64,000 nucleotides of DNA from Cephalotus follicularis (taxonomy: Eukaryota > Streptophyta > Magnoliopsida > Oxalidales > Cephalotaceae): positions 348,924 to 412,923 of the forward strand of contig BDDD01002260.1 in assembly GCA_001972305.1 (NCBI GenBank), written 5' to 3'. A program made the translations under genes and the position numbers. The first letter of the stretch is position 1. Each line of letters starts with the position of its first letter. Below the pieces are notes generated by a model. It was not told the origin of the DNA. It made no database searches and saw nothing but the letters and a program-made list of their open reading frames with translations. Of the stretch, positions 2,014 through 62,687 are shown one piece after another.

Positions 2014-2395
2014 CCGTCGATGCTTAAACGATAAGTGTCGACGCTATGGACTGTTACGCGTAGGAATGTACACTGGCTTCGTGATAAACGTCGATGCTTA
2101 AGGAAAGCGTTGACGCCCTGGTTTGAATACGCATAGTGATGGACACGTGGATGTTGACGCTTGAGGTCCTACCTCAAAGCGTCGACGCCAAAGTAATGAA
2201 AACCGACGCTCAAGGATCCTTACCTTGAAGCGTCGACGTCAAGGACAAATGTTGACACTTAAGTTACTGGTTAAAGTGCCGATGCTTAAAGGGTATAAGC
2301 GTTGACGCCTAGGGTTAAGCGGTGACGCTTAAGTGACTAATATGAACGATTTGGCGCCTAGAGGTTAGGTGACAACGCCGAAAGGGTCGGGTTGC
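2014..2395. repeat. GCGTCGACGC palindrome array in T1 solo LTR
   Basis: About a dozen diverged copies of an AAGCGTCGACGCTTAA-like palindrome occur at irregular spacing, for example AAGCGTCGACGCC near 2,177 and AAGCGTCGACGTC near 2,228. Many copies show C-to-T type changes (GTCGATGC, GTTGACGC), as expected from decay of methylated CG. The same motif recurs in several other LTRs of the window. Confidence 0.85.
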
Positions 2396-2429
2396 ATTTT
2401 GAGCATATGTTTGCTTGCATATTATTGTG

Positions 2430-3090
2430 GATTGGTCGAGCTTTCCTTGCCTTGTGCCGGTTAGCGTCGATGTAGGTATGAATTGAACTGTGAACTGAAT
2501 TGTGAATTGAAATGTGATTGAATTCTAAAGTGTTTTATCATTTTAGTAGTGCATACATGATTTTATAACAAATCATTATTTTACACGAAAATGTATATTT
2601 GCTAAAAGTATATTTTCGAAGGATTGAAACGTGATTTCAAAGACTGTTTACATTTTGAATAAATGTATTATTTCAAGTATTTTATAACTTATAAATTACT
2701 TGGAAAGGATTGATTTTTGGATTGATTGAGCTTTCCTAGCACCACGGGACGGTTAGCTGTGTGCTTTCCTAGCTCGGGGCCGGTTAGTATCAATGATTGA
2801 ATTGTTTGATTGATTGTGATTGTTACGCTGTTAGTGCGGTGACGGAGGTTGTCACTGACGCTAATGGCAGGTTGTGCTCTAGGGGCCAGGAGATGGCTAG
2901 GGACACCACACCGGATGGTCTTCCTCCGCTACGTGCCGGTTGACATCCACACTATGAGCTATCCTCCGCCTATGTGCCAGTTAGACTCATTTATTTGTTG
3001 AACTTTCCTCCGCTACGTGCAGGTTAGTGTCAATTATTGATCGAGCTTTCCTAAGCCTATGGGCCGGTTAGCATCGACGTGAGATAATAC
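2430..3090. repeat. Diverged repeats of GCTTTCCT...CCGGTTAG
   Basis: At least five imperfect units appear, each with a GAGCTTTCC-type start, a variable middle, and CCGGTTAG or GTGCAGGTTAG followed by a TGATTGA-like tail. Inverted equivalents appear at 120-420 in the surrounding minus-strand LTR. This is a family-specific minisatellite-like segment. Confidence 0.65.
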
Positions 3091-4234
3091 TAACCTACGG
3101 GTGGTGGTTATCGAATACTGATTGAATTGATTAGTCCTTAATGACATGAATGATGAATTGTGTAGATGTAGCCACTTGGCATGGTTGCGTAACTATTGAT
3201 CGAGATACATATACAAATACGTATTGTATATATATTTTACTGCATCATTATGCATTCATTACATGATTTACATTATTGTTGATCCCGAAAGGTATTTATA
3301 CTTTCTCTACTTAGCCGAGTGAGGACAAAGGCTAACCCCCTACAATTTCAGATTGACAGGGGCAATTGGACAAGTGCTGCTGAAGCTGTGTTGGAAGCTT
3401 CTTTCCTGAATGTTGTTTTAATTGTATTGTATTGTAATAATCATACTCGTGGTTTAAGAGAATGATGAGACGTGCTTGTTAAGAATTATCAGTTGGATGA
3501 TTGTATCAATTGGTTATTAAAATGATGGAATATTGTACTGGATTAATGTATAATAGTTTATGGCTTTACCAATTCTGGATAATGTATTATCGTATTTGAT
3601 GGATAATCATTAAGTATGGATTCTGTATTTAATGAAATATTGTATCGACATGTTTTTATCACGCTCCGTTTTGAGGGCAATTAACAATGGAATGTCGTAT
3701 TTTGGTAACACGTAGTATGGGATGCGTGTTACGTTGTTAATTCGGCTTATGATTGAATGCTTCCGCAAGTTATTAATCGTTCTGAAAGTTTTAAATTTTC
3801 GTGTAAAACTGTATAAGCCGGATATTATGTTGATTGCTACCATTATTATTGTTGTTATGGGAACGGGGTGTGACAAGAAAACACTTGAACACTTGCACTT
3901 TTGGAAAAACTTGAAACATTTTCAATCATTTAACACTTTTCACATCTTGGGAAAAACACTTGAAATAGTTCTGGAAAAGTACTTAAATCAGTAGTATTTA
4001 TGTGAAATACTTTGTGACACTAATCAACTGTATGATATGCAATGCATACTAACAATTCAATCAATTCCAGAACAATCAATACAATCATTCTCAATATATG
4101 CAATCAACAGTAGATGTAGTAGCCGTGGAATCTTATAAACTGATTACACACAACCAGGAATGATTATGGAAATCATTATCCACGGAATCCAGTGTAATTC
4201 TATGCAATTTCGCCTAACAGTACACTTAATTGTT

Positions 4235-4405
4235 GACATTTTGACTAAAGCGTCGCCGCTTATACTCAAAGCATCGACAGGATACCCAAACCGTCGACGG
4301 TGTTCATGCGTTAAGCGCCAATGTAATTTCGTCTAAAGCGTCGACATCTATGCCTTAAGCGTCGACGGTCCTAGACTAAGCGTCAACGCTTTAAGTCGAC
4401 CAGGC
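4235..4405. repeat. GCGTCGACGC palindrome array in outer T1 LTR
   Basis: Several copies such as AAGCGTCGACATC, AAGCGTCGACGG and AAGCGTCAACGCTTTAAG lie in the minus-strand T1 LTR, in the position expected from the array at 2,014-2,395. Confidence 0.8.
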
Positions 4406-5602
4406 ATTTTCCAGAAAATAGAGCATGCATTTGTAATTCAATCCAACCCAATTGACAGCATGCAATCATATAGCAATTATCCAGACATGATATACATATT
4501 ATATGTTCAAAATCATGTCAAATTTTCTACCAGTTAAGCCAGTAGCAAAGTACAGTCGAGCTGCAGGTTCAATTGTCGAACATCTCCGATTTGCTGCCAA
4601 CTGTCAATTATCACTTCCCTTCACTGCCAAACCAAATTACCAGCTCTCTCACTAGACATACAACACATTTCCATTACACTTAACACACAGAAACCAACAC
4701 TGCCGTCACCAGAGCGTTGGCCAGATTCTGACCGACTCACCCAGCTTGTGCAACACCCATAAACAGGTTCCACATTGAACGATTTACTCAAAACCGCTCA
4801 AGACTCGCTATGACTCAGCGCTGAACGCCGTGTCATAGGCGGTAGTGAGTTCAACTCACTGAGTTGACTCACCAGACTTCAACAGTTCTGGTCACCACCC
4901 AAAAATGCCACACAACCATCAGTTCTACACACCACTGTCCAAAAGCCGAGACTCGGCGAAAATAGCAAGATCTTAGGCAACATCGAGTTGAACTCATTGA
5001 GTCGACTAATTTCGGCCGATTCAGGCTGAGAAACGCCTCAACGGTGGTCAAAATGGGTAGAGCTGGCCTTCTAGACGAAGAACCGCTTCATCCATGATGG
5101 TAATGGTGCTGGAATCACGAGTTCGACGTGCAGAATGATGGGAAAGAAGAGAAGGAAAAGAAGAGAAAATAGGAGGAGAAAGAAGGGTTTACTGTCGGTT
5201 GGAGGGTCTGGACCGCTCACCGTTTCTTCCTGGTCTGGTGGCTAGCTCCGGCGTGCTCGTGTTCCTTTTTTCCTTTTTATTTGTTTTGTTATTCCTTTTT
5301 CTTTTATTTACCCTTCCTTTATTAATTCCTTTGGTATTTACAAGCAATTATTAAGGTCTGGGTCCTGATTATTCCACGCATTGCGATATTAATTAAACCA
5401 ACGCCCACTAAAATAACCAGAATAATAATACGAACAGTAGGCCTCATGAGCGCGCATTAAAAATGGGCTCTATTAGCCATTTTGGGCCTTATAATTACGG
5501 TTTCAATGCGTAATGCTTGTTTCCTGGCCTCCATCAACTTTATCATGGCCATAAATTGTACCAATATCACAATTATTATTTACAAAATTTTGGGGCATTA
5601 CA

Positions 5603-7348
5603 ATTCTCGTGTCAGTAGTGACTCCTACTTGTTGCGGTTGTGTATAAGTGCTAGTCATTTAGCAAGCTTTTGAACTCATATGATCCTGAGACCTGACAGA
5701 CTTCTCTATATTGTATGGAGACGATTATACTCTGATCTCCACCTTACCCAGTTCTTGCGTAGGGCTGGCAATTGGATGATCTTTGGGTATGGTTGAATCT
5801 ATACGATTGTAAGCGAGTGAGCAATATGGAATTGTCACACCTGAGAGAAGGTGATCGGCTCTATCATGATCTGTTTGTACTGTGGACTTATGAAATCCTT
5901 GGCCAAGGTTGAGGTAGACTGAAAAATAAATTTTTGGAGAGTCTACCAAAGGTCCTAGTGATGATTAGATATTTTAGGCATTGAGGTACAATTTAGGGTT
6001 GACATGATTCCTTACCCTAGACCTCAATCGAGGCTAAGTATCACAAGGGAGATAACTTAGAAATTCTTGTGTTACGATTGTGTGTAATAAATTATAAGAA
6101 ATTAATTAGATTAATTTTTCATCTGGATAATATTGGATGTTAGTCCGGGAGCATTTAAATAGGTTTGAGACTATTTAGAATGGTTTAACCGAACGCTAGG
6201 GGTATTTCATTAATTTATGAACACCACCGATTCTAACCGAGATTTTAAAGGGTCCTTGCCCGATAACGTTTTCTTCTTATGTTGGACATATTAAGTCTTG
6301 GTGACATTTATATAATAAGATATCGGTTAGGTGGATTTTAAAAATTGTGGTAACAGATTTGTTTAATCTTATTTAATCAATATCCGAAGGGATATGTGGC
6401 ATCACTAAAATGAGTATGATTCATTTAAGTGAGAGTTGGACTCAAAATTTGTGACCAGCCTTCAAAGCGTCGATGCCTTTTGGATAAGCGTAGACGCTTA
6501 GGGACATATAGGCATCAATGCCTTTTAGAAAGGCATCACCGCTTAGCTCATCTAAGCGTCAGCGTTTTTGGAAAAGCGTTGACGCTTACAGCGGTAACAT
6601 TAGTTCCGTACGTGGGCGCACAAAATGCGCCCGTTCTTTCTCCCATTACCACCTCTTGGAAAGTGGAAGGAAGCACGTCCGGGATCATGGAATGGTTTTT
6701 CCTAAAAGGAAGGACCATGATCTTGGAGTGGGTGAAATTGTGTGAGAGAGAGAAATTGACTGAAATAAAGAGTAGAAGGAAATTTCAGAAGGGAGAGACT
6801 TATGCGTTTTTGTAAAAATTGCTGGGCAGGTTCTCTCCAAAATCCCTTATCTGATTAGTTCATCAAGTTTGTAGCTAACCTAGGGTGGATTGTTATTGAC
6901 AATCTTAATCAATCCCAATCTTCTCTTGGTGAGCATTGTGAGAGAGAGAGTGAAAACATAGGGCTATTTTTTGGTATGCTCCATTGCTGCCCTGTGGAAC
7001 CTATTGCCTAGAGCTGTAGGAATATGACTTGGAGGAGTACATAGAGGGAGTCTTCGCAAGCTTGAAGCGGCAAAGATGAAGGAGCCATCACCGAACGGTA
7101 TGAACTCCTTGTCTCTCCTTATCTCTCTATGTCACCTTGCTTGTGTGTCACCATTGCATGAATTAGTGATGCCAATTCAATTATGCTTATGATGTGGTGA
7201 TCCTTAGCCTATGGATTCCCTGTTTTGGACCTTGTTTTGTGGTATTAAAGTTTTATTTTCCGCTGCTTTATGTTTAGAAATTTTTGTTCAACATTCTAAC
7301 ACCCTTGGTCCGAATCCGGGTTTAGGGTATGGTATACCATTCCCAACA
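5603..7348 (+). mobile_element. Partial copia-type LTR, family C
   Basis: This aligns along its length with the complete family C LTR at 46,554-48,770. Shared landmarks are ATTCTCGTGTCAGTAGTGAC at 5,603 and 46,999, a conserved block on minisatellite-free sequence at 5,710-5,960, a CGTCGACGC-type cluster at 6,460-6,590, and CTAGGGTGGATTG near 6,880. It ends ATTCCCAACA at 7,348, equivalent to GATTCCAACA at 48,770. Its first ~445 bases would lie left of the T1 LTR, outside the window. The bases after it (CCCCG) are the expected TSD, but the partner is not visible. Confidence 0.75.
6460..6590. repeat. GTCGACGC palindrome array in family C LTR
   Basis: Copies such as AAAGCGTCGATGCC, AAGCGTAGACGCTTA and AAAGCGTTGACGCTTA lie in the middle of the family C LTR. 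The other family C copy has the same cluster at 47,845-47,985. Confidence 0.8.
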
Positions 7349-23423: not shown

Positions 23424-26397
23424 CATTATGTGACACACCGTGTCACTTTCACATGGTTGACGTGCAAAGGATGGGAGCTCATCATTATTATTAGTATTTA
23501 AAATAAAAAAAAAGAAATGAAAGCACCGGGAGGCGCTAGAAAGCGCCGGGCTTTTAAGTAAAAAAAGAGGGACTCGGGTGCCATGCGCCCGAGAATGAAG
23601 AATACAGAGAGATGAGCGGGAGAGAAACAAAGGCAGAGTAGCGCCGGAGAAGACGAAGGCGCCAGCACCGGGGAGAGGGAGAAACGGCGAGCTCCACTGC
23701 CAGGTACTCCTCTTCTCCTTCTTCCTCCATTTTCCTCTTTTCTTTTTCTTCTCTTTTGCACCGAACGGCCACTGGCCGTGCGTCTCCACTGCCGTTAATC
23801 GCCATATATGGAGATAATCTTCTTGGCATTGCCTATTTTGACCTTGTCTTGGGCGTTTTCTGACAGTTTTGGCGTTGGTTGGACGACTGAGTTGACCCAG
23901 AGAGTTTGGCACGGGTTGAGCGGTGGCGTTGTCGTTGGGGGCGAGTCACGGCGAGCCACGAGCACAGACGCGCATATCAGAGCAGTTGGATGCTGGTGAT
24001 GATGTGGCCGGAGTTAGGTCAAGGCTGCCAGAACTTTGCCAGAGTCCTGTAGAACTTTCGCGATGCATGATTTCTCTGGGCAAATTGTCTGCCTTTTTGG
24101 TGAGTTTCTATTTTGAATTAGTGCATATGTTCATAAATATTCATGTTGTATTTGATAGATTGCGAGATTCTAGCATAAATGTTGAAGTGTTTGAGAGACA
24201 TGGTTATGAGTAGTTATAGAATTGAAATGGGTTTAAGGGTGTTGGTGAATTTAAATGATGATATGCAATGGTGGAAGCATTGATATGAGTAGTAGATGGA
24301 TTATGAGTAGTAAGTAGTAAAAATTGAGAAATATGATTAATGATGCCATAAAAGGATTAGGAATTGAGATATTTGAACCATGAGTAAATGTCACTAAGCT
24401 TTGAAGGTAGATGAATATGGTTAATAAATCGGGGATAAAATATTTAAGTGAAATGAACAATGAGAAGAAAGAGGAGATATATGTAGATGTATATCCGGGT
24501 AATGTAATTGATATGTTTTGTTTATGCAGTGTGAAGGATGGTAGAGTTTCGAAAAGATAACGAGAACCAATGACCTATTCAAACTTTGAGGGATTAGTCC
24601 ATGGTAGTAATTGACACTGATATTTGTGAGTAGAAAGTCTCCTTCCTTTATCTTATTTGATTTTGAAATTCATGGATGATTGATATTTGTCTTTAATTTG
24701 ATTCTTTAATATCATTTAAATTGTTGATAACCTAAATTGAAATTCATTCCTATGCCTATTGATAGCCTTCATTGTTTGATTCTATCATGTGATATGGCTT
24801 GTTATAAGATGATTCCATAATTGTTTCTTGGAATCCTTTGTTGACATTCTCGACCAAACTCTGATATGACTTGTTGATTGTCCGATGTGCAATCGAGTCC
24901 ATAATGATTTCTTTTGGATCCTTATATGATATTTTCGATTGAATTCTCATATTGATATGATACATTGCCGGTTGTAGATTCATTTTGCCCTTGCTTTTAT
25001 CTCCACTTGGCTCCCGCGGATGGATATTGCTTCGTATTATCATTATATTCATAACGTCATATTGATAGTCCTGTTGTTTGCATATGTGCCCTGTGTTCTT
25101 GTGATATGTGACATTGGTCGGGATTTGTATTCTGTTTGTCTTTTGTTGATATATTCATTGGTTTGTGATATGATCTCGAGCGGGTATATGCTCGATGATC
25201 TGGGTGACTTGGTCACCTTCTCACATTTGTGACATCGTGACTTGTCATATTGTTATACTATGTTATACTCTGATGCTGGGTACCGGTGTAACACCCCGCG
25301 CCCGCAAATTAGACAGGTGGCATTACTCTCAATCCAATATACAGTATAATGGTCAGGGCTAGCAATATAAAAATACGGAAAAACTTAAAACTTTACAATG
25401 TGCGAAAGATACAACACAATAATCCATCCATACGATGAAATACATTGCAATAGCAGTGCTTTACAATACCAATCTTTTACAGTGCGATAACAGTCATTTC
25501 AATACAATACATTTCAATCCTGTCACTACAAAATCTCACCACCAGCTCAGCGGTACCCAAGCAGTCGTGCGATCAAAATGAGTCTTCAGTCCTTCTGTCC
25601 ATTGCTACCTACTGCCCTACCTATTCGGCACAAAAGTACAACACAGCTCCATCATGAAGGATGGGGTTAGCCACACTGGCTAAGCAGAAACCCCATGCAG
25701 CATGTATGCATGTACAATGTGCAATATCGATGACAGTCTATGCAATATCTATGTACTGTGTACAATATCAATGCATGACATGGCAAATGCATGAATATAG
25801 TTGGCGATCTGAATATCCATATGTCCTGGCCCATAACAGAATATACAGATAGGATCTATAACAATCAATCAATAGCAGACACTCAATGGTGGTGTAAAAA
25901 CACCCAATCAATCAAACAATATCCTATAAAGCATGCGACCTGGGGTCAGTACAATGTCAATCAATAGTAATGATCAATCCCACGGAAGGTAGTTCTTCGA
26001 AAAGGGTGGGAGATCTACCCATTTGTCTCAAACTGATCAGGTTTGGGACTCATAGGTCTTCCAACCTACGGCTGGGTCAATACAATATTGATGAGCTACA
26101 ACCATGGGGGAGCTACTATACCGTTAGGGAGCTACGACCCTCTGGGAGCATCAATCGTCAATCAATACAGCACTGCTTGTCAGCAGATCAATACGATAAA
26201 TGACGCGATCGACAAAATAGGTGGACAAAGTGGACAACCTAACATGCCAATGCGATTCATACGGTCTCTCCATAGGATTCATACAATACAATCCATCAAC
26301 CTATCAGTAAAATGCCGATAAGTGGTGATGTCTAATAGAGAAATTGGTTAATGCTTTGGACTGGAAATTCTGGCTTAAGTGCCGATGGTTCCAGGTA

Positions 26398-26605
26398 AAG
26401 AGTCGACGCTTTGGAGGCAACCGACGACGCTCCAAATGTAGGCATCAACGCTTCGAGATCAAGTGTGTTAGCTGACCTGGAGGAGACTTAAAGCGGCGAT
26501 GCTTTGTAGGAAAGCGTTAGCGCTTTAGTCGGGATAGAAGTTGGAGAACTCAGTATAAGCACGTGACCGGCAACGCTTAGGGATAAAGAGTCGACGCTTT
26601 GCCCT
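26398..26605. repeat. GTCGACGC palindrome array in solo LTR E
   Basis: Copies include AAAGAGTCGACGCTTTGG (twice), AAAGCGGCGATGCTTTG and AAAGCGTTAGCGCTTTAG. The flanking AAA/TTT matches the form seen in family C and T1. Confidence 0.8.
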
Positions 26606-27479
26606 GTGTCAGGTGCAAAATTCTAGCTTTTTGTCCTATTTCGGAGGATTTAAAGGGATCGAGGGACACGTGTCGAGCAAGGTAAGGAAGACTTATGATA
26701 TTTTGCTAGAAAAGGGCAGGTGGCATCAACTGGATGGAAGGAATTCCATCATATGGGCAACTAGGAGGCAAACTCACATGGGTGAGGTCATGGATGCACC
26801 ATGCAAGCTTGGCCTTCAAGTTTCCCTTTTTCTTTATATATGTGTGCATTCTTAGCTGCACAAAGGTTAGTTTTCTACTGAGATTAGAGAGGAGGATGCT
26901 TGGGAGAGACGAAGAGGAGGATATCAAGTGAGGTAAGGAAATTCTATACCCATTTTATCAAAGTTATTCCTCTGTTTTACTTCAAAATTGTGCAGCAGAT
27001 TGTTTTATTCATATCTTGCTCGTTTATAGATGAAATGTCAAATGGTTGAATGTTTTGAAAACCTTAAGATGTCTACTTTAACTGTTATGTTTTATGCATC
27101 TCGAAATTCTGTCGAATTCTTGATGAAAAGCCCCAGTTTCTTCTACTGCTCAGGTCTTGTTTTCAAAAGGAAACTGCAAATTTAAAAATTCATTGCAGCT
27201 TCGTTTCTAAATGGAATTTTATGATTTTTATCTCTATGAATTCTTTGAGATGTCTACTTTAACTATTATGTTTTAAGTTTTCCATTAAAGAGTTTATTTA
27301 TATATGAAATATCTATTTTAGTAAAGTTATGCAAAACTGTTTTATAATGGTTTTTGAGTTAATTACTCAAAGTGATGAGAATGGATTGTGAAAGGAAATG
27401 AAATGAAGGTTTCTATATGGAAAACCCGTTTTAGAAATGTTTTACGATGATGTTTTATAAATGCTTTGAGCTTATCACT

Positions 27480-27620
27480 CAAGGTATTAAGAAAGATGAA
27501 GAGAAATGTTTTATGAATGCATTTGAGTTAAGTACTCAAATGAAGAGAAATGTTTTATGAATGCATTTGAGTTAATTACTCAAATGAAGAGAAATGTGTT
27601 ATGAATGCTTTGTGCTGGTC
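27480..27620. repeat. ~48-bp tandem repeat with TTTGAGTTAATTACTCAAA
   Basis: Two to three units of GAGAAATGTTTTATGAATGC plus a near-palindromic TTTGAGTTAATTACTCAAA run in tandem. Weaker copies extend upstream to about 27,350. Confidence 0.75.
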
Positions 27621-28894
27621 ACTCAAAGTATTAAGAAATGTTTTATGAAATGAATTTATGACATGAACAACTACTGGATTGCGATCCAGTGAGGATTAAT
27701 CTCATAAAGATTAATGAATGAACCAAGAGAAATAATCCGAGATGGATTAATGTTAATGGAGCGTAAAGTGCTCGCGGACATGCATGTGATGTAAGGATAG
27801 TAATCGGGGAGTGCACAATACCCCGGTGAAGCGGTGTGAAAGGGTTCATTAGAGGTTCATGACCATTAAGTTTTATGAAATGTTATGTTTCATGAGATAT
27901 GAACAGAAAAAGGGTTTTAAAGATGTTTTGTTTATGAATGAGAAGAAAATGATTTTACTGATGTTTTTAAGTATGGCTTTGATACAAGCCAAAAGAAAGT
28001 ATGATTGGAAAACGTTTTTGATTGTTTTCAAGTATGTCGGTGTTATACACCAGAAAATGCATGATTTTAAAAATGTTCCGATTTTACGAAAGTTATCCTA
28101 AAAATGGATTTCGAAAGTGAAATGTTCTAGTCTTATGAAAGTAGAAAATGATTTTCAATGATATTTGAAAATGTATGATTGCAAACGTTTTGATATAAAT
28201 TATCAAAAACAATGGATTTTGATAACGTTTTATGACTATGTTTCTTACTGGGCTCTTTAAAGCTCACTCCTTTCAATGTCTTGTTTTCAAACAAATCTTC
28301 CAGGAAACGTTGAACGTGAAGTTGCGAGCTTTAGTGGAAGTTCACGAAAGAAGAGTAAGGAAAGAAAGTATGATATGCTATGAAGTTATGTTTTAATGTC
28401 ATGTGTTAATGTTTTCTGCCATGTATCATTTTATGATAAACAATGTATAGATGTTAAAGTAAGAAATTGAATGCTATAGGTTATGATGTTTTTATGTAAG
28501 ATGATGATATCAAGAGTTATTGAACATACTTGAAAGTATGAGAAGTTAATGGTAATGGTGAGTATATGATTGTTTTATGATGTAATAAGTTTATGTTTTT
28601 CTGCTGGGTAAGGTTACATATTAAGTGATGTACAAATGCAAAGGTATTAGAAACGATCATGATAATGAGAATATGACATTTTGAAATTGGTGTTTCAAAG
28701 ATGTAAGCATATGTGATCTTGTGAAGTTATTGAGTAATAATGTTAGGTTTTAAATCTAAGCTAAGATTAAATGATATGAAATGGATCGTTAAATGATTAA
28801 ACAATTTGATGGTTAATGGTTCACACCCAACGTAACGCACCGATCTTCGTAGCTCGCTTTGAACATAAAGTGGACTCAGGTCGGGGGCGCTACA

Positions 28895-29075
28895 AACGGC
28901 GTCGACGCATTTCATTAAAAATAACCTGTAAATGCACATCGATGTTCGGTATCGATGTCTTTCTCAAAGAAGAGAAATCTTGAAGGACATCGATGTCTTT
29001 GCTGCAGAAACCAAAGATGTGACATTTCAAGCAAAAGACATCGATGTCCATGGGCTAGGGATCGATGTCTTTGCT
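28895..29075. repeat. CATCGATGTC palindrome array in solo LTR D
   Basis: Repeated ACATCGATGTCTTTG and GGTATCGATGTCTTTC-like units lie here, plus one GGCGTCGACGCATT at 28,898. This is the ATCGAT variant of the GTCGAC array. Confidence 0.8.
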
Positions 29076-29513
29076 GGACAGGGTCAATTTTTATGCCGAA
29101 AACCAGCCAATCTCATACCAAAATACAATTTAAAGCCACTCTTTGAAAACCAATATTTAAAATCAATCATTTGAGGTTAGTAAAACTTGTTACAACCTTC
29201 AAAATTCAATTTCAATCCTCCTAGATCAGTTAGATCAAGGAAATCAATAAAAACCCTAGTTTTTCAATTCAATGCAATACAATCACTCAATTCAATCAAT
29301 CATTCAATCAATTATGCAGTTAAGCAATAGGCAATCAAGTAGGGAAGTCCTACCTTTAATGAAGCTTCAAAAGTTGAGCTAACGATCGATCAATGGCTGG
29401 AAACACTCAAGAATCGGCTGCTATGTCACTCAATCGGCAACCCACACCTGCAATCGGTATCCTCGTTGAAGTAGATGTAATCCGGTTGCTATGGAGATGG
29501 AGGGAGGCTGCCA

Positions 29514-29516
<3 letters not shown>

Positions 29517-29549
<33 letters not shown>
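29517..29549. repeat. (AG)n microsatellite
   Basis: A pure AG run of about 33 bases lies in solo LTR D. Confidence 0.95.
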
Positions 29550-29552
<3 letters not shown>

Positions 29553-30205
29553 ATGAAAGAATGAGAGTGAGAAATTGACTTATATAGTCAATTTGACCAT
29601 CTCCCTGAAACTCAGCCCAAAATCCTGACTACACATGCATATAATCAATACAATCACAATAGGTATAGGAATACCTCAATTCAATACAATTCGGTACAGT
29701 ACAATATGGTACAATGTATGCATGAATAGTATGAAAAGGGAATTCGGGTCGTCACAACTGGGTTTCTGATATGTATTACTGGTCCAAGGAGAGGTATATG
29801 TTTGATGCTCAATTCTACTTAGCAGGCTCATTGGTCTATGACGGGGTGTTATGTGGAAACTGCCCCTGGGTTCCATACCTGGATCTGCGGCATACTATTG
29901 TCTATGATGGTATGCTGAGTGTGAGTGCAGCAGAGCTGCTCCATTACCCTCCTATTGGACTGTGTTTGGTTACTGGATATATATATGATTTTCGGACGAG
30001 GGATGGGTCCGTGCACTGATCATGCCGGCCCCTCGGACAAGGCAAAGGCATAGACACTCTATACCGGTATATGAAGGATATGTACAGTCCTGTAGCGTAT
30101 GGCCTATTTATATATTATTGCTGCAACGGTTATGATATGACGTCATGTGATTTGGCAGGGTTATGATATGACACCATGTGATTTGGCGGGGTTATGATAT
30201 GAGGT

Positions 30206-32760
30206 TGTCACACCCCATTTTCGATAAACAACGTAAAAGCAGAAGAGGCAAATAACATCTAAGATTTAGCTTATGCAAAAACCATAAAATTTAAACTTTT
30301 CAAATAAGATATCAGTTACGGAAGCATTAAACTCATAAAATGAAAAACACATAACGTGCATCCCATACTACACGTTACTAAAAATACGTCTGTCATAGTT
30401 AAAAGCCCACAAAACGGAACGTGATCCAAAATACATTATCCAGTATCATCATAAGTCAAGTAAACCGGAAAATACAGTACACAACACCCAAAGGGACATA
30501 ACCCCTAAGTAAAAACATTATCAAAACTTGTACTTCATCCATGCTGATCCCCAAAGCCGGTCCACTGCATCAATCTGTAAAGTAGGGGGTTAGCCTTTGT
30601 CCTCACTTGGCTAAGCATAAGTGCACTTGGGATCAACATTAAATACATATCATGTAATGTATGCATAGATGATGCAGTGTAGTAGAAATCTAGTTTATAT
30701 ATATATATGAAAAAATATATAAGTTTATCAGTACTGTAAAATATCAGTGGGAACATATATATGAAAATATATGTATACAATAACGGTACAGTAGTAACCC
30801 GGCCAGGGCTACATCAACAGGCACAGTAATGTCCGAAAAGGACCAGTAAACAGGATAGTATATCCACAAAGGGACCACAAACAGGCAGTTAGTATGTACA
30901 ACGCCACTAACTCCTGGCCCCACGTTGCTCTCCCACTTCGGTCCCTTCTCCAGGCAACCAAGCAAGACAATAGTACAATACAGTGAGTTACCCAGCTAAC
31001 TGCTGTCCCCTAGGTCAACCCTGCCACTAGTCATCGCCGACAGTCCCCGCCACGCAACTAGTACGACTCAAGCACAAACACAGTAAATTCACAGAACAAG
31101 CACGGTGAATAGTCACAGTAAACAGTGCAGTAACAGTACAGTAATGATCATTAGATCAGCAACAGGCAGTTCATTTCAAAATATTTTCGAAGGTCGTAAA
31201 CATTTGAAATATGTATTTCCAATAAATAGAAAATACTTTAAATAATTTCAGTAGTGGAAATTGCTTTCCCAGTATGTTCGAAATTATAACAATACTCATT
31301 TTATATTTTCGTACTCAAACATAGTAGTTTTCAAACTCAGATGTGCATTTCTAAATTAATATAACAATTTAGAAATCATAACAGTTCATAAATGGTTATT
31401 AAACAGGTAGTAAACAGTACATATGCAATGCATACAAATGCTCAAATGCATCCTAAGCGAAATTGGGATCATCGGGTGTCAAAATCGTAAAAAACTGTCC
31501 AAACAGGACCCTAAAGCGTCGACGTTTTTCCCTTGGGCGTTGACGCTTATGTCCTCTAAGTGTCGACGTTTAGTCCCATAGCGTCAGCGCTTTCCATTGC
31601 CTAGGCGTCGATGTCTCCTCCCATAGGCGTCGACGTTTAAAATGATTTCAGAAAATAAAACGCAGTTCACAGTACAAAGCGTCGACGCTTACCAAAGGTG
31701 TCGACGTTTTCGAGCATTAGTCGTCTTCTTCCTCGCAACATGGCAAACCAGTAACAGTTCCACCACGAGAACATGCAATCCAACATGTATAAAGCCCATA
31801 AAACCTATATGCAACATCATGTTACACATCCAGTGCAACATGGCATAATTTCAGTGACCAAAAACAGTTCAACAGGCCATGCAATCTATGCATAAACATC
31901 ACTGATCAAACACCAATTATTGAACACAAAACACAATTATGGGTTCCCCTACCTCTAAACCCCAAGTTAGGAGTTGCAATCCACCTCTTTAAGTCCTAGA
32001 ATCTGGTCACAGTAGCCTCAAGGTTCGTCCTCTGCTGCCTGCCACAAGCTTCAAGCTCCAAGCTCCAAAATGCTCAACAATGGTGGTTCCTCTCTCTCTT
32101 TCACTTTCTGTTTTCTTACTCTGGTGTTTTAGATGAACCAAGGACAAAGAGAGGAGCAATTATGCTTTGGGAAACCCTCTCTCTCCTTCTCCATTTCCGT
32201 TGCATGCATTTCTCAGGTCCCATTTCCCCATTTCCTTTCTATCCCAGTTTTTGTTCTTTTCCTCTAACTTTCTGCCATTGCAGGTAATGAAACCATATTC
32301 TCTTGCATGCAAATGCTAAGGCCACTTGTCTGGTGCATGCCTGGAACCTTGCAAGCATGGCTAACACATTTCATATGCATATGAATACGCCAAGAAGGTG
32401 ATACACACTTGTCCCTTGCCCCACGTCTTCTGTCAGCGTATAAACATGTCGGATATTCGACGCTAAGCGTCGACAGTCACATGCAGGCATCGACGCTTAT
32501 GTGTTTGAATTAAGCATGCGTTTTAATTGCTTATGCGTCGGCGCTTCACTCAAGGCGCCGGCGCTTTAGCCTCAAAACTGTGCCGTTTTGACTTTATCTT
32601 ACACTTTATCATTTCCTTAGCATTTCCTCTTCCAAAATCGACATTATTAGATTTTGGAAAACATCATCAACGTCGGGAATTTTGTTATTCTCATTAATTC
32701 TATGATAAGGTTAGATCAAAAATTAAATTATTACAATGCATGAAAATCCTGGGCGTTACA
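30206..32760 (-). mobile_element. Solo LTR, family T1-like, minus strand (TSD GAGGT)
   Basis: On the plus strand it runs from TGTCACACCCC to CTGGGCGTTACA, so on the minus strand it is TGTAACGCCCAG...GGGGTGTGACA. The 5-bp TSD GAGGT is perfect (30,201-30,205 and 32,761-32,765), and the 3' LTR at about 39,006 gives the uninterrupted sequence. Two palindrome clusters are present (31,500-31,715 and 32,455-32,570). The distal motif CCTCACTTGGCTAAGC near 30,600 is the reverse of the T1 motif. No internal domain, so a 2,555-bp solo LTR. Confidence 0.92.
31500..31715. repeat. GTCGACGC palindrome array
   Basis: Copies include AAAGCGTCGACGTTTTTC, GGCGTCGACGTTTAAA and AAAGCGTCGACGCTTACC. A second, smaller cluster in the same LTR lies at 32,455-32,570 (CTAAGCGTCGACAG, GGCGCCGGCGCTTTAG). 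Confidence 0.85.
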
Positions 32761-40221: not shown

Positions 40222-40800
40222 AGGCCTTTTGAAACGGATAGAATCCGTTTCATAAGGCATATTTTTCCGTTTCAATAGGCCTTTTGAAACGGTTTTGAAA
40301 CGAAAAAATGGAATTTCAAAAAAGTGGCATATCAAAAGCTTTTTGAAACGGATAAACCGTTTCAAAAGCCTACCTTTTGAAACGGTTAATGCTGCCGTTT
40401 CAAAAGGTCGGCTTTTGAAACGGTACATCCAACCTTTTCAAAAAGGTGCCACCTTTTGAAACGGCAAGTTCTACCGTTTCAAAAGGTGGACCCTTTTGAA
40501 ATGGTTTCTTCCGTTTCAAAAGGTAGCACCTTTTGAAACGGTAGGATTTACCGTTTCAAAAGGGGTCTCTTTTGAAACAGGATGCGTTTCAAAAAGGCGA
40601 TTTTTTTTAATATATTTAATTCCCTTTTGAAACGGTTTTTGTTTCCGTTTCAAAAGGTAGACGCTATTGAAATGGGTGTTTCCGTTTCAAAAGGTAGTAC
40701 CTTTGAAACGGTCAGATTCGACCATTTCAAAAGGGGTTAGGCGCTTTTGTTATATATTCAATACCCTTTTGAAACGGTATTTCCGTTTCAAAAAGGGTTT
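40222..40800. repeat. CACTA-A left subterminal repeats
   Basis: There are many copies of CCTTTTGAAACGG and its reverse complement CCGTTTCAAAAGG, commonly as head-to-head or tail-to-tail pairs 10-20 bp apart, such as TTTTGAAACGGTAGGATTTACCGTTTCAAAA near 40,531. In En/Spm such repeats are bound by the TNPA protein. Confidence 0.95.
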
Positions 40801-45437: not shown

Positions 45438-45619
45438 CTCTATATTATGACCTATGATCCCTAACAACAAAAACACAAAAAGTAACAATTAGACATGCAT
45501 AAACTTATTTACATTTTGTTTTTATTGAAAATTTTATGCAATGCAAAAGAGCAGTAATTATGACATTGAATGTAGGATTTCACTAACATTACATTGAATT
45601 GGACTAACATTGCCGACTA

Positions 45620-46060: not shown

Positions 46061-47844
46061 AAGATATTTCAGGGCATTGGTAATACATGGCTCAAATGTC
46101 ATTAATAGAATCACATGGCATTGGTAATGTGAGATATAATGAATTGCACAACTTAACCATATATTCATTTTTTCCTTTTAATTTGTTAGTACTATTCGCC
46201 ATTTTATTTCACCATGAAAACCTCATGACATCGTCAATGAATGAGATAAAAAATTAATATATACTATGGCTACTTGATCATTCCTAAGTGCATTTTGAAA
46301 CATAAATTTTAGAGTTTATATTTCAGTTAATTATGCTTTAATAATTTCTTTCAATAAATACCTTTTGAAAGAGAGTTTCAATGACCAATTCATTTAATTG
46401 AATTCAACAAATGTTATTACGTTGAGACTTATTAACATTCCATTGAATTGGACCACGTGGTCGTTTCAAAAGGATGCATACATGTCAAAAGTTACTAGCC
46501 ATGTCATTTCATATCAATGCAAGGCTATAACACAACCCATCATCAGTGAGTATTGTTAGATATAGTGACCCGACAAGCCATTAGATGGGTTGTCATATTA
46601 TATCTTACCATGTATGGAACAATCTTATTCTTATATATATATGATACGTGCTAAATTTGTTATGGCTATATCACTTGTATTTTATCACATAATTGAAGTA
46701 GTTTAATTATTACCTACTTATACTAGTGATGCCCTGACATAAGGTTGGATGTCTGGCATGGAGGCTGTGAGACTGGTTACCTTACTCCTTATGTCAAACT
46801 TGTTCCAAGTCATAGGTTCACTTTGTGGGCATTAGTGAACCGGATAGACTTGCGCGTATGTTGCCTGCTCATGGAATCGGGGGATGGATTCTCTCACTAC
46901 CATCTGTGTTGGACACTAGGGCAAATACGGGGTACGCGCTGGGAGCGTGTACACTGAACAGGACCCACGTAGGAGACAGCATTTGGATAGTCGCTATTCT
47001 CGTGTCAGTAGTGACTCCTACTTGTTGCAGTTGTGTATAAGTGATTATCACTTAGCGAGTTCTTTAACTCGTCTGGTCCTTAAACCTGAGCGACTACTCT
47101 ATATTGTATGGAGACGGTTATGCTTTGATCTCCACCTTACCCACTCCTTACGCAGGGCTGGCAATCGGGTGGTCTTTGGGTATGATCGAATCTATACGAA
47201 TATAAGTGAGTGCGCAATAAGGGATTGTCACAGCTGAGCGAAGGTGATCGGCCCTATTATGGTCTGATTATACTTTGGACTTATGAAATCCTCGGCCAAG
47301 GTTGAGGTAGACTGGAAATTAGATTTTCGGAGAGTTTACCAAAGGTCCTAGTAATGATCAGATATTTTATCCATTGAGGTACTATCTAGGGTTGACACAT
47401 ATCCTTACCCTAGACCTCAATCGGGGCCAAGTATGACAAGGGATTATAGTACATGCGAACCGACAACTTAGAAAATCTTGGGTTAATGAGGTGTGTAATA
47501 AATAATGAGAAAATTAATTAGATTAATTTTTCTATCAGGATAATATTAGATATTATTCCGAAAGCATTTAAATGGTCTGGAATCATTTAGAATGGCTAAA
47601 TCGAACCCTAGGGGTATTTCGGTAATTTGTGAACACCTCTCGTTTTAACCAAGATTTTAAAGGGTCCCTGCCTTATAATGATTAGATCTTTATTATGTTG
47701 GACATATTAAGTCTTGGTGTCAAATATCGGTTATGTGGATTTTGCATTATGTGAAAACACATATGTTTGATCTTACTTAACCAATATTTGAAGGGTACAT
47801 GAGATCATTAAAAGAGTTAGACTCTTTATGCTTCACTGGCCAGA

Positions 47845-47985
47845 AGGCGTCGATGTCTTTTAGAAAGACGTCTATGCTTATCTCTAATAAAGACGTCGAT
47901 GTCTTTTAGAAAGCATCGATGTGCTTTAGTGCCACATTGCATAGGCGTCGACGTCCTTTGGAAGGCGTCGACGTCTTTAAGCAGA
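47845..47985. repeat. GTCGACGTC palindrome array in family C solo LTR
   Basis: Copies include AAGGCGTCGATGTCTTTTAG, AAGACGTCGATGTCTTTTAG and GGCGTCGACGTCCTTTGG. Spacing is about 20-30 bp. Confidence 0.88.
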
Positions 47986-48151
47986 ACGTGCAACCTGTGC
48001 ACGACCTCACTTCGTGGGCACTACTTCTCTCTCATCCTTAGCCGGTTTCTCTTGATTCTACACGTTTTAGAAACGTGGGAATCATGGCTTCGGACTCCTA
48101 GGGAGAGAAGGCCATGATCCTAAGTGAATGGCAGATTGGGAGAGAGAAAGA

Positions 48152-48243
48152 AAGGCTAGTAATAGGCATTTTTCTGCAGAAAGAAAAAAGAGGAAAAAGG
48201 CTAGTAATAGGCATTTTTCTGCAGAAAGAAAAAAGAGGAAAAA
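48152..48243. repeat. 45-bp perfect tandem duplication
   Basis: GGCTAGTAATAGGCATTTTT followed by CTGCAGAAAGAAAAAAGAGG and AAAAA is present twice in succession in the family C solo LTR. The other copy (about 6,760-6,810) has no such duplication. Confidence 0.9.
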
Positions 48244-49439
48244 GGTTGAGTTTTTGCTGGACAATAGAGAGCTCGAATTTCTCTGCAGATAGTGAGTGAT
48301 CCTTCATCTGATATACACCAAGCAATGGCTTATCTAGGGTGGATTGATCATTGACTTCATTGGTCAATATCAATTTATCTTTTCTAAGCTAAGTGAGAAA
48401 GAGAGAGAGTTCATGCTCTTTAGCTTTGCTGGTTGGATTGTTTGTTGTTCCTGAGGCTTGAAGAACATCAAAGGGAATCTACTCAAGCTTGTAGCGGCAA
48501 AGAAAGAAGGAGCCTTCACCCACTGGTATAATTCTTGGTCCTTCTTCCTTATGCCATGCTTGTGTGTCACCATTGTTTGCAATGGTGACACCAATTCAAT
48601 TCAGTAGATGTTGTGGTGATCCATGTGATCTGTGGACGTGTCATTTTGGACTTGTTTATGTTATATAGGGTGTTATTCTGCTGTCATGATTGTATGTTTA
48701 AGTTTTATTCTACACCCTTTACACCCTTTGTCCATTTATGACATTGGACTCGGTTTTTACGATTCCAACAAGTATACCATATCACTAACCGTTCTATATC
48801 CATTACAATCTATATTCGTACATAGGCATATTGTCCCATACCGGCATACATATGTTTATCAATAAGCTTGTAACTAGACCAAAAATATAACTGAAGAAAT
48901 AAATAATAAAACCAATGTTTGGCTGCTATGCACAAGGTTCATCTTATCAGTCACTTTTGTTTTTATTTCCTGAACTATTGCCAGTAAAGGATAGAAAAAG
49001 CATTGATATACTGAATCACACACCACCAGATTTTTCAATATGTATCTATTTTCATCTCATTATAAATAAGGAAATAATTCATTTATATAACTGAAACATA
49101 CAATCAGCAAGAAAGAACATAACTTATATACCTTACACCTGCAAATTTGACATATGATTGGCAATTACATCACCATTGACCATCCAAAATCAGGAATTAA
49201 ACATAACTGATATTGAGGTATCACCTAATGTTTAATGCTAGTAAAAGTGTTAGATATACCATATAACTATCACAAATATCTTATTTGCAATCATAACAAA
49301 AAATTATCTGCTTCTAAGGTTTTCTGCTAATTCCAAATGCACAAGTAACAACCAATAAATGGTGACCTCTGCCGACAGTGAAGATTCAAAGATTACCTCT
49401 GTCAACAGTGAAGATTCGAAGATTGTCCGCTACTGTGAG

Positions 49440-49870
49440 TTGAGTCGACAGTGAGAGAGAAGAGAGGAGCAGTTGAGAGTGAGAGGAGTGGAGGATGAGA
49501 GGTTGTTGCCGTTGTCGTTGGTGTCGATGGAGAGCGAAAGACAGTGAGAGGGAGAAGAGAGCAGCCGTTGACAGTGAGAGGAGAGGATGAGGAGAGGTTG
49601 TTGCCGTTGTCTTGGGTGTCGATCGAGAGCGACAGACAGTGAGTGGGAGAAGAGATCAGCCGTTGACAGTGAGAGGAGAGGAGGAGGAGAGGTTGTGGCC
49701 GTTGTCATTGGTGTCGATCGAGAGCGACAGACAGTGAGAGGGAGAAGAGAGCAGCCATTGACTGTGAGAAGAGAGGAGGAGGAGAGGTTGTTGCCATTGT
49801 CGTTGGTGTTGATCGAGAGCGACAGACAGTGACAGGGAGAAAAGAGCAGCCATTGACAGTGAGAGCAACA
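49440..49870. repeat. ~95-bp GA-rich minisatellite in CACTA-A
   Basis: Four to five units contain GTTGTTGCCGTTGTCGTTGG (49,501, 49,597, 49,691, 49,787), then GTGTCGATCGAGAGCGACAG, AGAGAGCAGCCGTTGACAGT and GAGAGGAGAGGA. It lies just inside the right subterminal array, in the likely promoter or leader of the minus-strand transposase gene. Confidence 0.92.
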
Positions 49871-49944
49871 TCGAAGATGTTAGGTCTACGAAAGAAAAGG
49901 GGAAATTAGGCGTCGTTTCCTTAGTTTGGGATGTAAGATAAATA

Positions 49945-50290
49945 CTACCTTTTGAAACGACAACGATTAACCGTTTCAAATCGGCAGGTACCTTTTGAAA
50001 CGGAGTAGTTATACCGTTTCAAAAGGTACTACCCTTTTGAAACGGTACAACTATTCCATTTCAAAAGACAGGGATTTTGAAACGGCGAAATTTATCGTTT
50101 CAAAAGGTTCAGGGTTTTTGAAACGGCGTCATACTTCCGTTTCAAAAGGTTAAACCTTTTGAAACGGCGTAAACACATCGGTTTCAAATACTATACCTTT
50201 TGAAACGGATGTAGTGGCCGTTTCAAAAGGATACCCTTTTGAAAAGGCCGAGACATCTGTTTCAAAAAGGTGCGTTTCAAATGACCCTTT
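49945..50290. repeat. CACTA-A right subterminal repeats
   Basis: There are about seven pairs of CCTTTTGAAACGG and CCGTTTCAAAAGG, the same motif as at the left end, stopping just before the terminal TTCTTGTAGTG. Confidence 0.95.
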
Positions 50291-55870: not shown

Positions 55871-55879
55871 TTGACAGCT

Positions 55880-56830: not shown

Positions 56831-57099
56831 CATGGCGATAAGCCATTTTCAGAGTCCTTATCTGATAAGGCCTCTTGGTAGTGGGTCATCTTCCATAAGA
56901 TTTAACTCTTGAATGCCCTCAATGAGGAGGCCACCATAATATCTGTCAAGTGCTATAGACATTCTTCCTGACTTGCGAGGAGGTTCTTATGTGCTGGTGG
57001 GTTGGACTGTTTAGGGCTCGACAACTTGACTTGGTCTAGGTAGTTCCCCAATTTGTGCTTCTTTAGATTCCTTATCAAGCTTTACTTGACTCTGACCAT

Positions 57100-57960: not shown

Positions 57961-57969
57961 CTATTAAGA

Positions 57970-59303: not shown

Positions 59304-60555
59304 GGGATCTACAGATATAAAAACAATAAAATAATTAATAAAGCAAAAATAAAATCCAATAAAAATATAAACATAAAGTTTTGGTCTTTAAACTTTATGA
59401 TACCTCCCACTGTTTTTCGAGAATCCCATAACCCTCATTGTATGGGAGACTAGAATTAGCAATCCAACTCATGGACTCTAATTCTGAGTGGGTGATCTAC
59501 GCCCCGTAACCTTTTTATCATAACAATGAGTGTGCTCAACAGATCATGATAATCCTTGTGGTTAGGTAAAGCTCTTTGCCGATTGTGTAACTTTTGCACA
59601 ATCCTCGATCTTATGTTTTGCCTTTAGATGTAAACTGACCTTGAGTGTGCTCAACAAGTCAAATGCACTTTACCTTTCATCAACATACATGTGAATAAGT
59701 GATAAGACCCTTGGGTGTGGTCCAAACCGAATCCAATACTAATCAACTTATATGCACATCATATGTCCAATTGAAATGAACATCCTGCTGGAATGCAAAC
59801 CTTGAGTGTACTCAACAAGCTTATATCCCACAGAATCATTCACATTAATAGTAATGAAGGAAGGCGATGACCTAAAACTATTTAGTTTCGTCATTTGCTT
59901 GATATTTATAAATTGAGAGTTTATAAGGTCACTTTTTATTTATTTGATCAAACCTTTATTAATCATATTACAGGTATATGCTATAATGTTGAGAGGTCGT
60001 TGGAACTTCTAGCATAATTTAGGCATGCATCTCATACATCCTAACATCCTAATGATAAATCACGGACTCCCACTATTGTGACTTACTTGAACTCAAAGCA
60101 AGCCACTGGTCTCATTTCTAGGTGTGATTATTACAACCAGCATTTATATCCCATACATGCCATTGGTCTTGTAATATTCTTCAGTCTTCATACTTCTCCT
60201 CCTTTTGCTTCTGCTGCTACTCTCGTTCATAAATTACAAATTTCTAGTTAAAACCTAATAAACCTTGATTCACAATCAAGGGGAGTTACAAGGAGAAAGA
60301 GATAATTTATAGATACAGATTAAATAGAGAGAAAAGGCATGCAAGCTCTAAAAAAAAATTATTACAATTATTCTCATCTTTATAAAATAATCACAGCATT
60401 CAACATTTGAAAATAAAACCTTAAACCATGTCAAGTCCGTGAATTATCATCATGCATATTAATTCAATCTCATGAAGTAATATAAAATGTGATCTATTTG
60501 CTATCTTCATCATAGATCATTGATTATGAAATAATATATCTTCAAAAACATATCG
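59304..60555 (-). other. copia-2 untranslated leader with repeated stem-loop motif
   Basis: Copies of an imperfect inverted repeat (CCTTGAGTGTGCTCAACAAG and variants) occur near 59,525, 59,640, 59,712 and 59,803, in the positions of the related repeats in copia-1. No open frame of note. Confidence 0.7.
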
Positions 60556-60964
60556 GAAATGTTAGAAAACCTTAAGGTTTGATCTCTGACCTTAAGTAGA
60601 CCAACGCTAATGACTTGCAAGTAGACCAGTGCTAATGTCTGGCAAGTAGAGTAGTGCGAGTGTCTGGCGAGCAGACCAGCGCCCTCTTCCTCTAAGGTCT
60701 ACCTTCAAGCATTGAAGTTCGACTTCAAGCTTTGAGGTATGTTCTCAAGCGCCGTGGTCTGCTTACATGAAACGAGTTCTGACATCAAGTCCTTGAAGTA
60801 TAATGTAACGCCCGGTTTTTTTTCTTGATGTAATAATTCAATTTATGATGTATCTTAAACTTGAATTAATGAGAAGGTTGAAGTTTCAACTCAAAAGATG
60901 TCTCTAGACCCTAAATATTGCTTAAGGAAGGAAGTGTGTATGTCAAAGCTTGAAACGGCACTGT

Positions 60965-61115
60965 TTTGGGACAAAGACATCGACGTCTTCGGAAAGACGT
61001 CGACGCCTTTGGGGAGTAACGTACACGTGAATGCACGTCGACCTTGAGCGAAGACATCGATACCATCTTACAAAAAGGGAAAAGACATCGACGTCTACAT
61101 AAAGACGTGGACGCC
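60965..61115. repeat. CATCGACGTC palindrome array
   Basis: Copies include AAAGACATCGACGTCTTCGG, AAAGACGTCGACGCCTTTGG and AAAGACATCGACGTCTAC. Further clusters of the same motif in this LTR lie at 61,865-61,950 and 62,175-62,285. Confidence 0.88.
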
Positions 61116-62687
61116 TTTGTAAGAATGGCCATCACGTTCTTCGTCGGCAGAGTAACATGCAAAGGGAATTTTTATGGGGCTTTACGAGACGCCTTTTCAA
61201 GTGCATTGTGACGTGTTAATCACAATGGGGTGTTGCCTGGCATGTTTCAAAACCTGCCCTCACATGGGACATGCAAGGGATTACCACCCTCACATTCAAC
61301 CTGCATAAGAAAGAAAGAAGAAGACAAAAGAGAATATACAGAAACCTGGAAAGTGGGAGAGATCTCGAGAGTGGCCTGTTAAACGTCAGCATAAAGCTGT
61401 TTGGGGGAAGCCATCTGCATAAGAATAACCCTCCCCAGTTGTCTCTCTCGTTCTAAAAACACCAGAAGAAAGAAAGGAAAGAAAACAATGAGTGTGAGCC
61501 ACCATTGTTGAGTTTGCTTGGAGCTTGAGATTGGAGCTCGTGTGTAGCAGTTGCTAAGGGACCTTGGAGCTGCTGGAAGCCAGAACTTGGGAAGTTAAAG
61601 AGGTGGACTTTCCAGTTCCTAACTTGGAACATTAAGGTAAGGGAAAGTGATGGATTTATACATGCATTTTGAGTTCTAAGTTAATGAATAACCTGGGGAA
61701 TTGCATGTTAATGGTTGGATTGTGATTCTGGACCTGTTGTAGTGCTACTGTAATGCACTGAGTTAATCGTGTATGTATGATTACATGAATATGTGTGTTG
61801 GTTGTGTAAAGGATTGATTTGGAAATGGCTGAGTGTGTTACAATCGTGGAAATCACGTTCTGGGTTGTAAAGACATCGTCGTCTATGAGAAGACGTCGAC
61901 GCCTTCGTGTGAATATATAAAAGACATCAATGCTTTTGTAAAGACATCGACGCCTTTTCTAGGAAATCGTTGAACTGTAATGATCATTTCAGATGGCCAT
62001 TTTAGCCACTTGGGAATCACCTGTTTGATTTCAATTTGATGTTATGGTTGTGTTCCTATTAACCAGTAGCATACCTTATACGTTTAGGGTGTGGGATTCA
62101 TTTATATGAGGGATTAAAAGGTTGGATTCTACCCTCTAGAATCTAGACTCGCGAGCTGATGCTCTCTGGTATGAAAAAGACATCGACATCTTTGTAAAGA
62201 CATCGACGTCTTTGGTTCGAATACGCCTGGAAATGTTTGTACTTAGGATTGACGCTTTAGGCTAAAAGACATCGACGCCTTAAGCATATGTTTGCATTGT
62301 TACTGTGATTTGCATTATGGTTGCTTACTTGAAAGTGTTAACCATTTTGAAAAGCTTGCATGATCATTATGATCATTTGTATACGAAAATGTATATTTGT
62401 CAACATATGAAACTATATATTTTCGAGATAAATGGGGAAGTATTTCCAATGACGTGTTTTAAAGGTTTGATTATGAAACCAAATGTAATTTGCGAAAATG
62501 TATAATTTACGAATGTATATATTTTCGAAATGATTGGGGAAGTATTTCCAAAGACAGAGAAATGTATTGTTTTAAGTTTTGTAACTTATTACAACTTGTG
62601 AACGGGATAATATATTTTAAACAAATATACTTTGATCAAGTAATTATATGTAATTGCTTGACTTGTACTTGAATTGCTTGTGCTTGC

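Follow-up and report, generated by a model that had tools for sequence, protein, structure and literature searches.

Arrays of one palindrome in dissimilar long terminal repeats of Cephalotus follicularis: putative cis-regulatory modules with recurrent doublets

A 64,000-nucleotide stretch of the Cephalotus follicularis genome (assembly GCA_001972305.1, contig BDDD01002260.1, positions 348,924 to 412,923 of the forward strand; hereafter the window, meaning the whole stretch analysed) harbored eleven clusters of a single palindrome inside eight long terminal repeats (LTRs): four copies of a family T1 (T1a to T1d), two of a family C (C1 and C2) and the LTRs D and E. The palindrome was enriched, shared one consensus, recurred in doublets 20-21 bp apart and displayed one of two arm registers, mostly uniform within an LTR. 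The LTRs of C and E resembled those of T1 only at the arrays or close to them. These arrays are putative cis-regulatory modules of the LTRs, and with middling confidence, on the sequence patterns laid out below, they may be taken as cis-regulatory sites for a dimeric, probably host DNA-binding protein. The doublets and the two registers are the two points that are new beyond an earlier sequence-only reading of this DNA.

Palindrome clusters and their carrier LTRs

All tests were internal to the window, which contained no N. Loose sites, with at most 5 mismatches to AAAGCGTCGACGCTTT, AAAGACGTCGACGTCTTT or AAAGGCGTCGACGCCTTT (the palindrome at 16 or 18 bp), numbered 72 window-wide, whereas 100 dinucleotide shuffles averaged 13.4 and never exceeded 25; 18 sites had at most 2 mismatches (shuffle mean 0.02). 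Sixty-two of the 72 lay inside the eight LTR regions, the other 10 being weak singles across the remaining 45.9 kb. In every one of the eight regions the count exceeded the maximum of 300 shuffles of the region's own sequence, an enrichment over dinucleotide-shuffled LTRs that agrees, within the window, with the sequence-only reading; the rescan and a position weight matrix (PWM) scan also found the clusters where that reading had placed them. The left LTR of the 27-kb element held two single loose matches (23547 and 30052), so that the reported absence of the palindrome from the LTRs of this element and from copia elements applies to clusters but not to single matches.

To keep the choice of motif from being post hoc, the full set of 256 palindromic 8-mers was ranked (at most 1 mismatch, against a first-order Markov expectation). 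CGTCGACG ranked first, with 51 occurrences for 3.8 expected (z 24), followed by TATATATA (z 12). The PWM scan gave CRTCGAYG as consensus core and AAAG/CTTT as arms. At a score of at least 6 it returned 79 hits in the carriers and 35 more outside, and 70 carrier hits in 11 clusters were kept by hand (T1a 13, T1b part 6, C1 6, E 8, D 5, T1c 12, C2 6, T1d 14). Hits dropped by hand were isolated (3296, 47118, 47666, 61282, 62894), overlapping (4348), at the E/D junction (26326) or weak and at an array edge (29085 and 60959, each 22 bp from a kept site). In-array sites scoring below 8 (2204, 4275, 26425, 61039) were kept, as were 2373 and 26383 (score 9-10). Keeping low-scoring in-array sites favours the spacing count; spacing was also recounted with sites chosen by score only.

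Carriers and arrays are listed below, with loose sites per region (mean and maximum of its own shuffles in parentheses), target-site duplications (TSDs) and, for each array, the arm register with its counts of abutting to one-out sites.

570..3875 (+): T1a, solo LTR nested in T1b, TGTAACG...GTGTGACA, TSD AGAAA on both sides; 10 loose sites (1.09, 5)
2010..2382 (+): T1a array, 13 sites, 16-bp register (12:0, 1 tie)
3876..5602 (-): T1b, start part of an LTR whose rest lies at 1-569, cut by the window start; minus-strand start TGTAATGCCCC; 6 loose sites (0.54, 3)
4246..4393 (-): T1b array, 6 sites, 16-bp register (5:0, 1 tie)
5603..7347 (+): C1, family C LTR, 5' side cut by T1b, end ..CCCAACA; 6 loose sites (0.39, 3)
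6463..6589 (+): C1 array, 6 sites in 3 doublets, gaps 21, 24, 21, 23, 20, mainly 16-bp register (5:1)
25287..29756 (-): D, solo LTR interrupted by E (26326-28894), imperfect TSD ACCGG/ACTGG; 3 loose sites (0.19, 2)
28895..29072 (-): D array, 5 sites, 18-bp register (0:5)
26326..28894 (+): E, solo LTR nested in D, TG...CA, imperfect TSD AGTGG/AACGG, its start the least certain boundary; 6 loose sites (0.75, 5) in a scanned region, 25900-28894, that takes in some D sequence
26375..26601 (+): E array, 8 sites in 4 doublets, gaps 21, 21, 21, 51, 21, 53, 21, 16-bp register (8:0)
30206..32760 (-): T1c, solo LTR, TSD GAGGT on both sides; 11 loose sites (0.60, 4)
31512..31711 (-): T1c inner array, 8 sites, mainly 16-bp register (5:1, 2 ties)
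32463..32568 (-): T1c outer (LTR-start) array, 4 sites in 2 doublets, 16-bp register (4:0), LTR positions about 194-298
46554..48770 (+): C2, solo LTR of family C, TGTTAG...CCAACA, TSD AGTAT on both sides; 7 loose sites (0.54, 3)
47843..47978 (+): C2 array, 6 sites in 3 doublets, gaps 21, 25, 20, 32, 20, mainly 18-bp register (1:5)
60804..63523 (+): T1d, solo LTR, TSD TATAA on both sides; 13 loose sites (0.65, 3)
60972..61118 (+): T1d outer array, 6 sites in 3 doublets, 18-bp register (0:5, 1 tie)
61868..61957 (+): T1d inner array, 4 sites in 2 doublets, 18-bp register (0:4)
62175..62282 (+): T1d third array, 4 sites, 18-bp register in 3 of 4 (1:3)

All carriers were solo or partial LTRs, none with an internal coding region in the window. 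TSDs of 5 bp were perfect for T1a, T1c, T1d and C2 and imperfect for D and E. T1b was 71% similar to T1a over 4540-5254, and C1 was 80.5% identical to C2 over 5603-6415. All four T1 copies displayed an inner array, and T1c and T1d also an array near the LTR start. By its ends alone, T1 (TGTAACG..GTGTGACA) looks Ty3-like and C (TGTTAG..CCAACA) Ty1-like, both superfamily labels being tentative.

Doublet spacing and two arm registers

Among the 59 adjacent gaps between the 70 hand-kept sites of the 11 clusters, 28 were exactly 20-21 bp and 33 were 19-22 bp. Random placement (5000 draws) with a minimum gap of 16, 18 or 19 bp reached at most 16, 20 and 21 gaps of 20-21 bp, and at most 24, 29 and 30 gaps of 19-22 bp, respectively. 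With sites chosen by score only, gaps of 20-21 bp numbered 22 of 53, 20 of 46 and 15 of 35 at thresholds 10, 12 and 14, against null maxima of 16, 14 and 12 (minimum gap 18). The C1 and C2 arrays followed the same plan (6 sites, 3 doublets, similar gaps) despite their differing arm register. Copies had previously been described as differing in spacing, a statement that overlooked the recurrent doublet gap.

The arms occurred in two registers: abutting the core over 16 bp (AAAG|CGTCGACG|CTTT), or one base further out on each side over 18 bp (AAAG-A-CRTCGAYG-T-CTTT). Ties excluded, abutting sites prevailed over one-out sites in T1a (12:0), T1b (5:0), C1 (5:1), E (8:0) and T1c (9:1), and one-out sites prevailed in D (0:5), C2 (1:5) and T1d (1:12). 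Each LTR copy thus displayed mostly one register, and both registers were found within T1 and within C. Heterogeneity among LTRs was high (G 61, against a maximum of 34 in 5000 label shuffles), with the reservation that sites within an LTR are not independent. Left and right arms were concordant, agreeing in 34 sites and disagreeing in 11 (Fisher p 0.0016; 25 of the 70 sites were tied and excluded). The sequence-only description had a GTCGAC or TCGA core between AAAG and CTTT arms, to which the two arm registers are a correction.

Doublets were tested on 31 hand-named pairs (62 of the 70 sites), reduced to 30 for G-U pairing and partner likeness by leaving out the single D doublet. Pairing between doublet partners did not exceed that of shuffled partners (10.45 vs 10.52 of 16 positions, p 0.71), also when G-U pairs were allowed (p 0.84 sense, 0.69 antisense), in a test limited by the small number of doublets (2 or 3) in some LTRs; RNA hairpins joining doublet partners were accordingly rejected. 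The two halves of one site matched at 5.40 of 8 positions, against 5.22 for halves mixed within an LTR (62 sites, p 0.033). Transitions at the outer CpG were skewed towards CATCGATG (39) over TGTCGACA (15; p 0.0015), which suggests a sequence preference rather than even CpG decay. Together, the half-site match, the CpG skew and the lack of hairpin excess between partners favour a dyad read as double-stranded DNA over an RNA hairpin.

In this reading, a dimeric DNA-binding protein would recognise each 16-18 bp palindrome as two-fold symmetric double-stranded DNA, with CRTCGAYG as its core and AAAG/CTTT as its arms. A doublet spacing of 20-21 bp, about two helix turns, would set two dimers on the same DNA face, possibly as a dimer of dimers. 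The protein would most likely be a host transcription factor recruited by LTRs of different families, and it would drive or tune LTR transcription. In a more specific form, which we consider rather improbable, one DNA-binding protein system might select the same phased doublet in unrelated retrotransposon families, and a change of specificity that moves the arms out by 1 bp per side would have switched the register of whole arrays independently in T1 and in C.

Points against protein binding and alternative explanations

Several results weigh against the protein-binding reading. The half-site symmetry excess was weak, sites within one array are not independent, and part of the spacing signal faded when the score threshold was raised to 16, where 8 of 20 gaps were 20-21 bp for a null maximum of 9 or 10, or when the gap range was widened: gaps of 19-22 bp, score-only with minimum gap 18, came to 26, 23 and 18 at thresholds 10, 12 and 14, for null maxima of 26, 21 and 18. 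The folding of 6 of the 11 clusters below -40 kcal/mol speaks against a clean DNA-only conclusion, and a slight excess of spacer likeness between families is not predicted by binding alone. A conserved TATA box a short way past the array is a feature of Sirevirus RM-box LTRs. Among five LTRs scanned here, TATA[AT]A[AT] followed an array by about 305 bp (T1a), 207 bp (T1c inner), 132 bp (T1d third) and 235 bp (E), at a chance rate left uncontrolled, and it was missing past the C2 array and from the stretch separating outer from inner array in T1c and T1d. The earlier proposal of a binding-site array for a host factor gained over RNA hairpins. The one host candidate named in the present analysis, CBF/DREB, failed its test. 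The words GTCGAC (CRTDREHVCBF2), RYCGAC (CBFHV) and AAAG (DOFCOREZM), given as PLACE cis-elements of CRT/DRE and Dof type in the part of PMC9138379 used here, do occur inside the palindrome, but RYCGAC was not preferentially kept (36 of 70 sites, against 39.1 after column shuffling, either strand, p 0.97), and a CBF/DREB target array is not favoured.

Local alignments outlined how far the carriers are related. T1a matched T1b, T1c and T1d, and T1c matched T1d, also outside the arrays; T1b matched T1c at the arrays only and had no match to T1d. C1 matched C2 along most of its length. C and E had matches to T1 only in the arrays or no more than about 45 bp away, and T1a had weak matches to D outside the array (91 bp, E 0.007) and to the LTR of the 27-kb element (E 1.6e-6). 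The C-T1 and E-T1 matches support the observation that LTRs with little else in common share a non-random palindrome array, be it by convergence or by acquisition from one source.

Common descent or transfer is the alternative that survives best, with a low though appreciable probability: the array would have a single origin and have passed from one LTR family to another through recombination or template switching, whether or not it functions today. The C2 and T1d arrays aligned at E 5e-11, but only 14 of 25 spacer columns agreed, for 89 of 107 site columns. Other array alignments, of few columns, had high spacer agreement (C2-E 17/20 and 16/19, E-T1c 20/23, C1-T1b 12/14), and the arrays of T1 copies lay at corresponding LTR places. 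Over 33 cross-family array pairs, the summed best score of 932.5 exceeded spacer-shuffled means of 885-897, and only 2, 7 and 2 of 300 shuffles attained it with site masks 18, 22 and 26 bp wide; cross-family spacer columns agreed in 433 of 575 cases (75%; mean of 60 controls 72.0%, maximum 75.4%). For this slight excess a shared origin is kept as a rival, yet the excess is small and its control kept base but not dinucleotide composition. No flank common to C and T1 or E was detectable beyond the arrays, nor did the pairs have a common orientation (18 of 33 scored higher sense-sense and 15 sense-antisense). The C2 array aligned better antisense to the T1c and T1d arrays (outer T1d: 52.5 vs 28.0), and the C1 array better sense to those of T1a and T1b. 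Two doublet patterns and the T1 LTR box gave no hits in viral contigs, and the T1 box gave none in prokaryotic genome contigs, a result of little weight given the viral and prokaryotic make-up of these collections.

A small-RNA or hairpin platform, in which transcribed arrays fold and are cut to small RNAs by which the host silences the LTRs, the palindromes persisting for another reason, appears unlikely. For six of the 11 clusters, some overlapping 110-nt window on one strand or both folded below -40 kcal/mol, as did 140 plus-strand and 99 minus-strand windows of 6389 over the whole stretch. This value is the cut-off for microRNA-like stability in PMC10760457, whose relevant part also provides, as a description of Bousios 2016, the maize Sirevirus precedent of a small-RNA excess on palindrome clusters. 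Such folding is a by-product of palindromes, however, the better-folding strand varied between LTRs, and doublet partners had no excess pairing. Rfam at the gathering threshold gave no matches.

An element-encoded trans-factor is less probable still: the protein of an autonomous relative would bind the arrays and counter silencing, as VANC does on VANDAL, and the registers would track its variants. The VANC21 motif is rare in other transposable elements, according to the part of PMC5735166 consulted, whereas dissimilar LTR families share the motif here. Pfam displayed no such gene in the 8 frames of at least 150 aa, which says little; the carriers have no internal regions in the window.

Functionless minisatellite drift, with a palindrome-prone sequence amplified by slippage, is highly improbable, even though the arrays are tandem-like and the family C array marks the start of the fast-changing part of the LTR (C1-C2 identity 86% and 80% before the array, 57% and 62% after), because doublet partners resembled each other no more than shuffled partners did (11.37 vs 11.59 of 18, p 0.88), the same word stands in dissimilar LTRs, and C1-C2 site columns were identical in 66 of 95 cases against 16 of 32 for spacers, a borderline difference (p 0.056). 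The same partner comparison led to the rejection of recent single-unit tandem duplication as the source of the doublets; members in the same position of different doublets were slightly more alike than those across positions (12.16 vs 11.76 of 18, p 0.028).

Surroundings and comparison with known systems

The window looks like retrotransposon-rich plant DNA, with 8 open frames of at least 150 aa, of which Pfam matched 4, among them a copia-type gag and a tnp2 transposase. The tnp2 transposase and DUF4218 frames lay on the minus strand at 42996-45488 and presumably belong to a CACTA-type element, of which similar repeat blocks at 40320-40600 and 49945-50290 may be the ends. A 95-bp tandem repeat, GA-rich by eye, spanned 49362-49931 in at least five overlapping copies. 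Two LTR-like copies of one element (23429-34001 and 36740-40209) were 92-94% identical in three blocks and array-free, the left one being interrupted at D/E and T1c. On the 3' side of T1d, a 61-bp tandem repeat occupied 63467-63890 in at least five overlapping copies; similar-looking text before T1d (about 60590-60790, by eye) gave the appearance of an insertion of T1d into this repeat array (TSD TATAA). E had inserted into a palindrome of D, with 4 bp between the TSD end and the centre of that palindrome (empty site, once joined: CCGATAAGTGG|CGTCGACGCATTT); the part of PMC6911290 consulted reports that LTR elements weakly prefer palindromes.

If protein binding holds, one regulator would serve dissimilar LTR families by way of a phased doublet code, whose two natural registers could be compared. 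One could then test whether palindrome arrays persist in LTRs as enhancers, as silencing handles or as both.

A literature search, mostly open-access, found no description of this palindrome motif. The earlier assertion that no described system has such a pattern was nevertheless too strong, as the Sirevirus RM boxes are comparable. In the part of PMC2829016 drawn on here, 13 Sirevirus elements carry 8-32 copies each of a palindromic RM box in LTR and linker together (3 to 14 in the 3' LTR, its Table 3), such as CGGTCGACCG in Vitis, GTCGGACGTCCGAC in Usier and ACAATCGATTGT in Tnd-1. According to the same part, a CGG-CCG core marks 12 of the 13 listed RMs (Tnd-1 being the exception), RMs are described as absent from classic copia elements, and near-identical RM palindromes recur in elements with little other homology.

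The present arrays resemble RM boxes in clustering many copies of one palindrome inside the LTRs of diverged elements, with several copies per LTR (5-14 here). They differ in their CRTCGAYG core with AAAG/CTTT arms, which lacks the CGG-CCG signature, in their many 20-21 bp doublets and in their two registers. Some carrier LTR ends here, moreover, look Ty3-like.

VANDAL21, presumably a DNA transposon, also has dense arrays of a short motif in non-coding transposable-element DNA, with motif variants by subfamily. Unlike the palindrome here, its YAGTATTAY motif is non-palindromic, enriched in one family and bound by an element-encoded factor, VANC21 (PMC5735166, in the part consulted). The maize palindrome CACCGGACNNNGTCCGGTG, shared by Copia elements and Helitrons in the part of PMC10760457 used here, is likewise one palindrome across classes or families of elements, with a different sequence. 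Compared with these systems, the present arrays are best read as probably of the kind already known from Sirevirus RM boxes, with another core and a doublet layout.

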